In this document: piece after piece, positions 2,200 through 15,170 of the stretch
How the letters are laid out: each line of letters begins with the position of its first letter
Numbering within the stretch: the first letter of the stretch is position 1
Assembly (NCBI GenBank): GCA_021234155.1
Contig: JAJEKV010000002.1
Location: forward strand, 9,138,409-9,202,408
Reading direction: 5' to 3'
Length of the DNA stretch: 64,000 bases
DNA from: Isoetes taiwanensis
Lineage: Eukaryota > Streptophyta > Lycopodiopsida > Isoetales > Isoetaceae
The notes under the pieces: generated by a model
What the model saw: only the letters and a program-made list of their open reading frames with translations
Told to the model about the DNA's origin: nothing
The model's database searches: none
Position numbers and translations under genes: made by a program

Positions 2200-2328
2200 T
2201 CTCTCTCTCTCTCTCTCTCTCTCTCTCTCTCTCTCTCTCTTCCTCTCTCTCTACTCTCTCTCTCTCTCTCTCTCTCTATATACTCTCTCTCTCTCTCTCT
2301 CCTCTCTCTCTCTATATATCTCCTCTCT
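2200..2328. repeat. (CT)n microsatellite, LINE tail
   Basis: About 40 bp of pure CT, then interrupted CT with ata and act variants to about 2328. It directly follows the 3' end of LINE copy A. The serine/leucine ORFs across it are simple-repeat shadows. Confidence 0.95.
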
Positions 2329-2604
2329 GGGTGGCACATTTGGGACTTGAAGTCATACATGGGTTCAGGGTGCTCCGCCGAGGAGTTCTTTTGGGAATGG
2401 GGAATCCATCGGGGATATATTGTTGACATTCTTAAACATAGAGATGCTTGGGCATCGGAGAGGTGCGAGGGTGAGATAGAAGGAACTTCGATGTTAGCTC
2501 TGAGGCGCTGGATGACTTCAGGCCCTGTAATTTTGAATGTAGCTTATGGCGTCTCCTTCAGACTGGGGGTCTCGAGGCGGAATAATATATTTCATTTCAT
2601 TTCA
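2329..2604 (+). mobile_element. 5'-truncated LINE 3' end
   Basis: A unit of about 275 bp bounded on both sides by CT tracts. It ends with AGACTGGGGGTCT (2560-2572), then aggcggaataatata, then three TTTCAT units, then (CT)n. This is the same terminal layout as copies A and C with a different body sequence, so it looks like a severely 5'-truncated LINE of a related subfamily that starts where the previous CT tract stops. Confidence 0.55.
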
Positions 2605-2694
2605 TCTCTCTCTCTCTCTCTCTCTCTCTCTCTCTCTCTCTCTCTCTCTCTCTCTGCCTCTCTCTCTCTCTCCTATACCTCTCTCTCTCTCCTA
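2605..2694. repeat. (CT)n microsatellite, LINE tail
   Basis: Pure CT for about 50 bp, then imperfect CT. It follows TTTCATTTCAT at the end of the LINE fragment just upstream. Confidence 0.95.
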
Positions 2695-2846
2695 GTAGTT
2701 GATTAATACGTGATCTTGTTGCTGCCACGGTTCCCTCGAAACCCTTAGTGGGGGTTTTAATCCGAGGTGAGTAATGCTTGAGCTGCTAGGCCCCTATTGG
2801 GTCCCATAGGCCCGATTGGTCTCAAGTGGGTGATAAAACAGTCTAT
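2695..2846 (+). mobile_element. short 5'-truncated LINE 3' end
   Basis: About 150 bp between two CT tracts. It ends in AGGCCCGATTGGTCT (2808-2822, a 5-bp stem with one G-T pair), then gtgataaaacag and (TC)n. The order hairpin, ATAAAA, pyrimidine tract equals that of the other copies. Only this 3' end is recognisable. Confidence 0.45.
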
Positions 2847-2928
2847 TCTCTCTCTCTCTCTCTCTCTCTCTCTCTCTCTCTCTCTCTCTCTCTCTCTCTC
2901 TCTCTCTCTCTCTCTCTCTCTCTCTCTT
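2847..2928. repeat. (CT)n microsatellite, LINE tail
   Basis: About 80 bp of uninterrupted TC. It is the third CT tract within 750 bp, each preceded by a LINE-like 3' end. Confidence 0.95.
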
Positions 2929-4800
2929 GCGTCATGCACAAGTAAAAATCAAAATACTCTCGTCATCAGGTTCTCACAGAAATGTCGTATTGTTTTTGGG
3001 AGGAGGAAGGAGAAACGATTAATACCAGAAACTATGACCTCTCTGTTGTTAACCAGATTGCTGTGCTGTTCGCCGGTTCCGATCCAACGCATCCCAATTC
3101 CGTGCCGAGAAAAAATGGCAGGATAATTCGATCATTAGCGTTCAATTCAGGCCAAATTGTGGGATATTCAAGCCATATTTCTTGGTTGGCCGGACTGTAA
3201 TGGGATAATTCATTTCTGGTTTCCTCCCCTTTCGGCGCGATTCGACCCACTAAACCATGGATCCAGGATTCATTCTTAGTATGATTGCCATGCTTTTAGT
3301 GCTTTGACACTTTCAGTTTACGCATTCTGAGGAGATACTGTTTGCAGGCTATTGGAACTCAATGAGCTCGAAAATCCAGTGACCACTGATGGAGTAGCGA
3401 TGTTTTTAGAAGACAACAATGGTATGTTTTTTAGCATGCGTACGTTAATGGTTCTGAGTTCAATGAGTTCGAAGACCGCCAGAGGAATTTTGGATTGCTC
3501 CGAGGCGGAGACACAATGGGATAATATTGATAACCCACGCGTAAGGTGTAGCTTCCTTTGAAGATGATATGGCACCAATTTTCTACGGGATGAAGAGCCA
3601 CGGTATGAGATTGGTAGAGTTTAATTGTGCCCTATCTTATGGGCTGGTACCAAAAGTAAGGCCCCTGTTGATCCAGGCGGTTGCTATGGTTACGTATTTT
3701 CTTGCGGGGTCGCGCACATGTCGATTGAGAGGATTTTATGTTTGGGAAACAGCGGTCACGAGAAATATACCAAAGAAATCGGCGACGGCAGAGACAATGC
3801 TTTACAAAGCGTTTTGTTGCAATGCCCTCTGAGGTGCAAGATTAATTGATTGCATTAAGAATTCCATGATGCAGCAGGGTTGCCCAATATATATGAATGC
3901 GATTAGCCGGATCCCGTATTTTTATGGAGGAAACCCAAAAAAGACAATGGGGGAAGACTATTCTGGCCGGAGACATAAGAGGGCATTCATGTCTCATGCA
4001 AGGAATTGTGACACATAGCGGACTTTTTATAAATGTTTGTGCTATGAAACGAGGTTAATCCATGATTCAAACCCGGTTCAAAGAAGAGCTCCATCTATAA
4101 CAAAATTGCTTCAAAACAAATTTTGCAAGAGCCGATGGTGACTCTTAGTGGTGGCTGAAGAAGGCGACCTAACGATCAAGATGTTGGTCAAATATTCCAC
4201 CTCTTCTATTAGGTGACTCGACCTATTCTAAGCGGGGCCCTTTCTCCTTAAAGTTTTTCCTCAAAACCCGGGGTGCTTATGAGTAGAAGTTCAACAAAGA
4301 AAGAGTTTGTAGAGGCGGTATGACGTGAGAGAATGGATTCCAGGATTGGTAAGGAAAAGGAGGTGAATTACGGAAACGCGCGGAGTGCATGTTACCAAAG
4401 CTTCCAAAGATCATACCGCATGTTGTGTTCTTTGGAACTACGTATAATGGAACAAAGTGGGACATCTTTCAATTGAGGATGATCCTCCACCCAGGTTTAC
4501 TACCTATGAAGCGAGGAAGCCATGAGCGGGTCATTTAAAAAACAAGGTGATCAAATGAGGAGCCGCGTGTTATTTGAAAATCTGGCGGAAGGACATGTGA
4601 TCCCATGATTGTTTTTGAACAATAAATATTAAATTCAAAAAGTCGAATTCTTGTCCATCTCACTATCTTTACTTATTTGTCAGGGCATTTCTTACATTAC
4701 GATGAATAAGTGTTTGAGTTTAGAGCTAAGTTCCATTCTGACCCTCAAAACATTTCCTTAGAAATGCTTGAACAACACATTCTGAAATTAGTGAGTCACA
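2929..4800. other. no recognised gene; possible eroded element
   Basis: Short open stretches on the + strand around 2980-3200, 3350-3560 and 3625-3850 read smoothly between stops (for example PRKNGRIIRSLAFNSGQ and CGVAHMSIERILCLGNSG). They could be remains of a coding element. I see no family motif and cannot assign a function. Confidence 0.3.
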
Positions 4801-4819
4801 ATGACTTCACAATTAAGAG

Positions 4820-4975
4820 GGAACTTACAAAGGCGGGAAAATCATTTTGTGCAAACAAGTTTGAAAAGAGAAGTTTATATTCATGAAGCAATTAGAGAAC
4901 TTACAAGAGCGGAAAAATGTTTGTACACAAACAAGTTTGAAAAGAGAAGTTTATGATATTCAAATAGAAAGATTA
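4820..4975. repeat. 76-bp tandem duplication
   Basis: Two adjacent units, each starting with aacttacaa (4822 and 4898) and sharing caagtttgaaaagagaag. They are diverged by a few substitutions and small indels. Confidence 0.75.
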
Positions 4976-13330: not shown

Positions 13331-13435
13331 AGCCCTAAAATTTGGAATGGTATGAAACCGCAGCGAGTGAATACGGGCACGAAAGCCTTATCTGACATAC
13401 AGCGTCCGAGTGGTGGCGAATTTGGAATTTTAACA

Positions 13436-13640
13436 TGAAAGATGTTATATAAGGCGGCAATGCGGGCGGTATTGCTATATATGGATGTGAGGTTTGGGGG
13501 CGGGGCTTGGCTGACAGCCCGACACATGGAAAAAGGTAAGGAGAAAGTGCAAAAAGAAGAAGTTTTGAGAGCTGATTTGGGTACAAAGCGCCAAAACTCA
13601 GGTATGATATCTTTCTTTAGCCGGAGATGGCTGGTATATT
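13436..13640 (+). pseudogene. LINE ORF2 post-RT block, copy C
   Basis: MLYKAAMRAVLLYMDVRFGG, then RHMEKGKEKVQKEEVLRADLG: the block (MLYKxLVxPVLLYGCEVWG...KVQK) that follows the RT in this LINE group, also visible in copies B and D. Confidence 0.7.
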
Positions 13641-14371
13641 TACTTTTGTTGAAGCTGTGTAAGTTATCCCGCGTGTCTTTATAAAGGAATCTCGATTTGA
13701 AGCGATGATAGTTTACCACGTTTGGCAATAGAGGGAACAAGGGGAAGGGTTGGTATGCTGATGTGGAGGGAATGGATGTGGAAGTGGGGACTAAATATCA
13801 CGAGGATTTGTATATACATCATAAAGATATCACGGACGTGGAGTTGAGAACATGTTACTAGGAAGAATTGGAGAGTTCGAGGAAATAAAGAAAGTTCTAC
13901 CCGGCCGGTATATTTAACGAGAACTCAAGAGGCCAAATAATATACGAGAGAAAGGTATTTCTTTTGAAACTTAAGACCTCCATTAGCAGGAGAATGAGAC
14001 TTAGTTACGCCTGAGGGCTTGGGGTGGAAGTTGGTAGATGGGGGGGATATCATGAAATGAGGCTACCAAGAGTGTAATATCACGAGGAAGTGGAGGGCCG
14101 AGCAGCACTATTAGCTCTTAAGATGCCAGCTTATGTGGAGATCGAAGCAATTTTAATCACCGGTGTCAACTCTATTGGAGTTTTAATTTGGAAGGTAAAC
14201 TTATTGGAAAATTCACTTAAAGAGATGTCACGAATGAGAGGGAATAAATTAGCCATAATTCATTGATGAGAGAAGATTTGGGAGAAGAGGCTAATGCATT
14301 GTGTGTCACAGAAGATGCATTACTTAGATGATATTTTCTATAATGTTGAATGTACTTGTTGAGCGTCTCAT

Positions 14372-14385
14372 AGACACGGTGGTCT
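14372..14385 (+). other. LINE 3' hairpin, copy C
   Basis: AGACACGGTGGTCT, identical to that of copy A although the flanks have diverged. Followed by gtgaataaaaaagcatttcat and the CT tail. Confidence 0.65.
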
Positions 14386-14410
14386 GGGGCGTGAATAAAA
14401 AAGCATTTCA

Positions 14411-14497
14411 TCTCTCTCTCTCTCTCTCTCTCTCTCTCTCTCTCTCTCTCTCCTCTCTCTCTCTCTCTCTCTCTCTCTCTCTCTCTCCTCTCTCTCC
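14411..14497. repeat. (CT)n microsatellite, LINE tail
   Basis: Nearly pure CT over about 85 bp with three cc interruptions, directly after TTTCA at the end of copy C. Confidence 0.95.
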
Positions 14498-15170
14498 TTT
14501 TCTTTTTAAGGATAAGCAAATTAGGTAATTGAGACTATAAATACTTAGGGCTGGGGTGTGGATAAGAGTCCTAATAGAATCGAGGCGGAGTTAGTGCCAC
14601 AATTAAATCTTTGGCCTAAAAGCTCTATATGCTATCACGGAAGGGAGGGTGTGTCAATCGCGACATTTGGAATTTTTGAGATGAAGCGTATGCTTTATAA
14701 AGTCCTTGTATACAGAGCCGGTAAGTACTTTATGGTTCTGCTTGAGGTGTAGGGGCGAACCTTGCCAATGATAGTTGGAGAAAGGTGGAAAGAGATACAA
14801 TTTTTTTCCTGCGAGCTAGGGGCGAAGATGCAAACACCATCACGACATGATGCTTTCGTGGAGTGTGGGATGATGTCCTTAGGCCAGAAGTAACTGTAGA
14901 CTTTCACGCTACATGTGTAAAATCTTATATAATGTCTGAAACAATAGCCTTTGAGACTTATGGAGGAAACCCGGAGAAGGGTTGGTATCACCGGATGTTA
15001 GTAGGTGAAGCATAGAGATGGGGATGAACATTGAAATCTGAGATTTCAAGGAAGATATTGAAGGGTGGGTTGAGAAAGAGCTTCCTAGACAAGTCGTTGC
15101 CAAAGCTTTCTTTGGAACCAATTTGTTGTCGAAAACAACAACCATCGATTTGCCCACGTTGCTTATTTTA
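14498..15170 (+). mobile_element. 5'-truncated LINE fragment, post-RT region
   Basis: Starting just after the CT tract, the + strand reads YKYLGLG, KSLALKALY-like (kaLYAI with ctatcacgg in place of atcgcg), MKRMLYKVLVYRAG, NDSWRKVERDTIFFL and FETYGGNPEKGWYHRMLVGEA in alternating frames. These blocks follow the RT in copies B, C and D. It is thus another LINE whose 5' truncation point coincides with the end of a CT tract. Its 3' end is not recognisable; sequence after about 15170 is unassigned. Confidence 0.6.

Follow-up and report, generated by a model that had tools for sequence, protein, structure and literature searches.

Long interspersed nuclear elements (LINEs) of Isoetes taiwanensis lie stacked head to tail in one stretch of contig C1018 (C1018:9138409-9202408), and several of them begin where a (CT)n tract stops. 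This raises the question of how LINE 5′ ends came to lie at CT tracts, whether by insertion into the tracts, by joining of RNAs during reverse transcription, by later growth of the tracts or by transcription through them. The stretch, 64,000 nucleotides long, is referred to here as the window, and the assembly searched holds 1,658,258,908 bases in 1,110 contigs; the published assembly, for which nanopore reads were combined with optical mapping and gap filling, is given as 1,658.30 Mb in 204 scaffolds and 909 contigs (PMC8566536, in excerpt). The initial annotation of the window proposed target-primed insertion at (GA)n/(CT)n DNA, with the element’s own CU tail annealing to the target. The account preferred here, on balance the probable one, is that several LINE families insert by target-primed reverse transcription at pyrimidine tracts, and that their tails feed later insertions.

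Within the window, where copies are denoted by the letters used in Table 1, non-CT sequence begins at, or no more than about 15 bases from, all five points at which the initial annotation had placed a 5′ end beside a CT tract (2329, 2695, 7693, 9690 and 14498). With tracts masked or left out of the comparison, homology sets three of these five ends (C, D and F) within 4 bases of the tract: it begins at 2332 in C, 4 bases past the tract (C aligned with E scores 74, and 8 shuffles at most 46), at 7694 in D, also 4 bases past it (I with D 287, and 3 shuffles at most 80), and at 14497 in F, 1 base past it (F with D 129, and 8 shuffles at most 79). Because the masked or cut tract itself halts an alignment, a homology start exactly at a tract is partly forced. 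The starts of G and B, by contrast, are not base-exact; homology of G to repeats resembling short interspersed nuclear elements (SINEs) begins only at 2714, and the first match of B to another 5′ end (L073) lies near 9892, about 200 bases past its tract. A fourth homology-backed case is found upstream of the window, beyond the 2,500-base N gap that directly adjoins its left edge, where LINE I ends in (CT)68 and the truncated LINE J begins 7 bases later (J with B 323; best of 4 shuffles 104). The copies are truncated at varying points, which means that the element does not simply have CT as its 5′ end, and the idea that CT belongs to the LINE 5′ untranslated region was dismissed for the truncated copies, which have CT at many different internal positions.

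The same pattern is seen elsewhere in the genome. The 251-base 3′ end of B served as a query, 40 of 585 candidates were scored, and the 39 copies besides the window copy, picked without regard to CT, were each taken with 1,250 bases upstream and 250 downstream. A 5′ end was located in 11 of the 39, at CT or CT/CCCT in seven, at a degenerate pyrimidine stretch in one, at a SINE tail of (CTATT)n in one and in plain DNA in two. Eight of these ends fall within the sampled flanks: L044, L048, L064 and L067 at CT, with homology starting 0 to about 15 bases past the tract; L043 at the degenerate pyrimidine stretch, about 50 bases long; L060 at the SINE tail; and L033 and L051 in plain DNA, although L051 may extend further. 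For nine longer copies the sequence 4.3 to 4.9 kb upstream was probed as well. Three of them (L036, L062 and L037) show a full-length start at CT or CT/CCCT through the pieces L073, L079 and L081, while no start was located for the other six; piece and copy are assumed to be one across about 3 kb of unread sequence, and L081 was recognised by eye on about 35 bases. Without these three assumed copies, the remaining eight comprise four ends at CT, two at other microsatellite or pyrimidine DNA and two in plain DNA. A second query, the start of open reading frame 1 (ORF1) after the L060 tract, matched five places in the genome; L060 was left out of the count, having itself been found via its tract, and all four others (L069-L072) start at CT, with only 12 bases of CT at L071 and about 16 other bases between CT and start at L072.

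No (CT)5 run occurred in a control of 18 evenly spaced 10-kb pieces from one scaffold, that of the window (both strands together, 360 kb). Of 358,596 windows 40 bases long in these random pieces, 160 were 90% pyrimidine or more, compared with five of the eight flanks measured, and CT tracts occur about once per 200 kb, a rough figure derived from ten observed tracts and 274,179 matches to (CT)12, overlaps included. The association of LINE 5′ ends with CT is thus supported as lying far above chance, outside the window too, in keeping with the initial argument that random insertion would not produce such placement.

At the 3′ side, the constant tail of the LINEs is (ATTTC)n and not CT, whereas the initial proposal has a CU tail. 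The constant end consists of a run of A followed by (CATTT)nC, in which n is between 1 and 5 in most copies (L048 has none), and then mostly by TCT or CT. A pure CT run of at least 20 bases, which could be tail, stands within 250 bases 3′ in 26 of the 39 copies, including L041 with (CT)32(CA)29, and the longest CT run per copy ranges from 2 to 140 bases. The other 13 copies lead into (CCCT)n (L039, L055), (TG)n (L049), a long impure pyrimidine tract (L038), poly-C (L065) or other DNA (L043, L046, L058, L063, L064, L066), or have 10 bases of CT (L032, L054). Among these 13, all with fewer than 20 bases of CT, TCT directly follows ATTTC in eight (L032, L043, L046, L049, L055, L058, L063, L064), CTCT follows CAT in two (L039, L054), and something else follows in three (L038, L065, L066); in the control pieces TCT occupies 1.9% of random positions. 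The TCT after ATTTC resembles a target rule, yet it could also be the RNA’s own end, and it is from these eight copies that a CU end on the LINE RNA may be inferred. The (CCCT)n, (TG)n, (CT)(CA) and degenerate pyrimidine 3′ flanks look like targets rather than tails.

What follows the tract can also be another element. Its 5′ end stands directly after the tract at 15 of the 39 loci, as recognised by eye and, for LINEs, from translations: a LINE at L045, L052, L059, L060 and L067, a transfer RNA (tRNA)-type SINE at L030, L031, L034, L035, L042, L048 and L068, and a K-type repeat at L037, L054 and L057. All 15 recognised neighbours run in the CT direction; no search was made for neighbours on the opposite strand, and 24 of the loci are unclassified. 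Four of the 15 belong to one cluster on C1094 and may go back to a single duplicated event. Similar downstream flanks are shared within about 83 kb by L030, L031, L034 and L035 (C1094:2.55-2.64 Mb), and within about 18 kb by L050, L051 and L056 (C1056:10.35-10.37 Mb); both groups are probably local duplications of LINE-CT units. At L072, CT tracts lie within the ORF1 region as well as ahead of the copy.

From the junctions, the orientation of the recognised neighbours and the tail, all read directly, a putative scheme of priming by pairing, event order and slippage can be pieced together for insertion at pyrimidine tracts. The nicked target strand would end in AGAGA, and this end would pair with the (AUUUC)nUCU(CU)n end of the LINE RNA. 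Such pairing would fix the orientation of insertion and leave CT on either side. The tract left by one insertion may then lengthen by slippage, and the lengthened tract could be the preferred site for the next insertion, so that head-to-tail piles would grow. SINE G would also have landed in CT, perhaps via the same machinery; its CT, given relatives that end in CTATT or CTTCC, together with the foreign microsatellites at LINE 3′ ends, favours targets that existed beforehand. A tentative and rather doubtful extension of this scheme is that CT tracts act as self-building docking sites, which LINEs both target and enlarge, creating targets for LINEs, SINEs and perhaps K in an orientation-locked, self-feeding heap.

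A serious rival, although an unlikely one, is template jumping, in which the reverse transcriptase would run off one RNA onto the CU-rich 3′ end of the next LINE or SINE RNA, producing a head-to-tail chain in one event with no target preference. Another element’s 3′ end indeed lies upstream of the 5′ CT at L048, L064, L070, L071 and L073, as I does before J, A before C and D before B; very short 3′ fragments stand in between (57 bases at L052), and SINE 5′ ends are joined directly to LINE tails. This frequent presence of a 3′ end ahead of the 5′ CT makes nesting in tails hard to tell from joining at the RNA level, which weakens the case for insertion at tracts, and template jumping would explain both the head-to-tail order and the empty site described below. 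It accounts less readily for SINE G, of which CT is not the usual tail, for K, which could not be a link in an RNA chain if it is a DNA transposon, for L044 and L079, where CT is present and no element was recognised in the upstream bases seen, and for the non-CT microsatellites among the 3′ flanks. Target-primed insertion at tracts and template jumping may both be in play.

Beside L062 lies a tandem unit without the LINE, GGCATGAT-TTTTATTA-TGTTGG, which has no CT at the insertion point. The filled unit reads GGCATGATG(CT)68-LINE-(CT)10-TTTGTTTAC-TGTTGG, its 5′ tract being about (CT)68 and its 3′ tract (CT)10. If no tract of its own was already present in the filled unit, the CT arrived with the insertion or grew there, and at the L062 site, if nowhere else, the tract likely grew with or after insertion. 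This agrees with an improbable reading in which insertion is unspecific, TCT tails later expand to (CT)n, and nesting in CT arises by chance or through open chromatin, as does the 2 to 140 base range of the longest CT runs in the 39 copies. However, CT at seven of the 11 located 5′ ends and at the four second-query places cannot be the copy’s own tail, and at about one CT tract per 200 kb chance nesting would be negligible.

The same empty site (L079/L062) would fit a further possibility, very unlikely as it is, in which the 5′ CT of full-length copies is part of the element because transcription starts in the upstream tract and copies CT along. The L060-type starts (L069, L072) and the full-length starts at L073, L079 and L081 carry CT, as this would require. 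Truncated copies (C, D, F, J, L044, L048, L064 and L067), on the other hand, carry CT at varied internal positions, as by eye do the truncated units after L045, L052, L059 and L067, and L070 and L071 start at CT though they lack the first 24 query bases.

Several observations weigh against insertion at pre-existing tracts. An empty allele that contains the repeat would be expected of LINEs that target microsatellites, and the initial annotation suggested a look for allelic empty (CT)n sites; the single empty site found, paralogous rather than allelic, has no CT. Target-primed insertion finds support in the 5′ ends at CT, the one orientation of the 15 neighbours and signs that some flanking tracts are not the copy’s own tail. 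The initial annotation also named 5′ flanks that are mostly non-microsatellite as a result that would count against it; this is not what the located ends show, of which two of 11 (L033, L051) lie in plain DNA, but the other 28 of the 39 copies have no located 5′ end. The 5′ flank of L010, a copy with a CT tail, looks plain by eye; in L011, which like L010 was picked through its tract, (CT)8 lies close to the 5′ end and a short CT tail leads into (CA)11(GA)58. In the window, copy E has no CT/GA tract on its 5′ side, and its extent (about 15301-16437) is weakly backed by homology (101; best of 4 shuffles 78). No clear target-site duplication was found in seven copies compared, where the tracts hide such duplications. 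Finally, an upstream CT tract was present in none of five copies of the L030-type tRNA-type SINE, taken without regard to CT from 41 listed.

The notion that tRNA-type SINEs are generally CT-targeted was accordingly not borne out by the five copies checked. Among the five relatives of G, the terminal repeat is (CTATT)n in four, (CTTCC)n in the fifth and CT in none. The SINE family to which G is related mostly has a (CTATT)n tail (window 37424-37486; L015, L016, L024, L027) and was present in four of the 18 random pieces. Repeat K, about 4.6 kb long, ends in GATGTGGCCAAGCAT(CT)n, and the same kind of end is seen by eye at L064. K-like ends of the 5′ type (L037, L054, L057) and of the 3′ type (L064, L069, L081) all meet CT or CT-rich tracts by eye, and part of L074 resembles the interior of K, again by eye. 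The end sequences of K look like short terminal inverted repeats. Positions 7466-7550 were considered as an old CT target and dropped, as they look like the end of K.

The LINEs carry a genuine reverse transcriptase domain. RVT_1 matches the open frame of L056 in Pfam with an E value of 2.1e-8 (34.6 bits; cut-off 29.6), and it matches a stitched frame of D weakly, under the cut-off (E value 0.024). The 39 copies share their 3′ end by selection, and their starts differ among those located, as in 5′-truncated LINEs. The sequence LLMGDFNGRTG, with an apurinic/apyrimidinic endonuclease-like (APE-like) GDFN motif, follows the L067 tract, and Exo_endo_phos2 of Pfam gives a weak match (E value 0.23). 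The best PDB match of the reverse transcriptase, 8gh6 (“Reverse transcriptase-like protein”, E value 0.023), is uninformative as to clade. Ten single stop-to-stop pieces of window LINEs gave no Pfam match and PDB searches with stitched window pieces gave nothing useful, because indel noise breaks the frames. Searches for viral contigs, plasmids, Rfam families and tRNAs gave no match.

This noise bears on whether the arrangement could be an assembly artefact, with misjoins or basecalling errors in CT tracts. The first 20 kb of the window are indel-noisy and lie beside the gap, in a nanopore assembly with gap filling (PMC8566536, in excerpt); nevertheless, the same pattern is present at many loci on many contigs, and some copies keep open frames of about 400 codons (402 in L040, 400 in L058), so the chance of an artefact is slim indeed. 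Small indels are dense between A and B. GCGG is in strand-biased excess in positions 1-20000 (80 against 17 for CCGC), TCACG is likewise in excess, and the noise there has the look of nanopore errors from a single strand, left unpolished next to a gap in the assembly. Homology of A extends collinearly to about position 50 (score 95; best of 4 shuffles 63), so its own 5′ end lies out of view. Further to the right, a DUF761 frame at 22645-23280 is compatible with a land plant, and diverged repeats with AGAACATTCTAGAACATTC-like words and periods of about 78 to 129 bases occupy 45850-57700.

Table 1. Elements and CT tracts of the window, from left to right (A, CT, C, CT, G, CT, K, CT, D, CT, B, CT, F, E, H)
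Feature	Positions	Strand	Remarks
3′ part of LINE copy A, a member of B’s family	1..2199	+	5′ end beyond window; blastn 841-2298 vs B 12992-14503, 71%
CT tract, A/C	2200..2328	+	
LINE copy C, last 276 bases only, 5′-truncated	2329..2604	+	homologous to E from 2332 on; 3′ end matches B at 80% and the D tail at 91%
CT tract, C/G	2605..2692	+	
SINE-like repeat G, one CTATT unit then CT	2695..2846	+	homology from 2714; 74% to L024
CT tract, G/K	2847..2927	+	
Repeat K, possible DNA transposon, CT on either side	2928..7554	+	ends resemble TTGGCCACATG / CATGTGGCCAA; compared by eye
CT tract, K/D	7555..7690	+	
LINE copy D, 5′-truncated near start of reverse transcriptase domain	7693..9553	+	homology to I from 7694 (score 287, 3 shuffles at most 80) and to H (288, 4 shuffles at most 76)
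CT tract, D/B	9554..9689	+	
LINE copy B, longest of stretch (4.7 kb), many indels	9690..14410	+	exact 5′ end not set by homology
CT tract, B/F	14411..14496	+	
LINE copy F, 5′-truncated, no CT tail seen	14498..15170	+	scores 129 with D and 156 with H; 8 shuffles at most 79 and 83
LINE copy E, own CT tail (AG on + strand), 5′ side without CT/GA tract, probable exception	15301..~16437	-	
LINE H, more distant, no CT tail or CT flank seen	16690..19500	+	ends approximate

Zepp LINEs of Chlorella form head-to-tail piles by nested insertion near telomeres; the piles here are alike in order, but their copies occur on many contigs and are linked to CT tracts. Microsatellite targets are shared with the Togen and HERO families, whereas the present LINEs differ in the APE-like GDFN motif, with a Pfam E value of 0.23 only. 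Togen, which is NeSL-related and targets (TG)n, and HERO have a restriction-type endonuclease (PMC4640811, in excerpt). Mino, a LINE of the R1 clade of animals, is found in AC repeats (PMC3124438, in excerpt) and likewise sits in one dinucleotide repeat; here, in contrast, the host is a plant, several families form the piles, and CCCT, TG and mixed pyrimidine DNA also lie beside copies. RTE elements of Lepidoptera carry microsatellites at their 3′ end (PMC2887409, in excerpt), a likeness that stops at the 5′ side, where the present LINEs also have the repeat and are stacked. The LINEs described here thus work like microsatellite-targeting LINEs, which is a likeness and not a claim of membership.

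Sequence-specific LINEs are reported mainly from invertebrates (PMC6530143, in excerpt), and among the papers that the literature searches listed, none was, judged by title and opening of the abstract, about a plant LINE in CT repeats. Should K prove to be a DNA transposon sitting in CT tracts, it would add a second element class with this habit. If insertion at pyrimidine tracts is borne out, an independent case would be added in the form of a land-plant LINE lineage guided by the pyrimidine-rich end that it carries. Such a lineage would offer a direct test of whether RNA-target pairing, without a specialised endonuclease, can set target preference, and it would explain one source of long CT microsatellites in plants.

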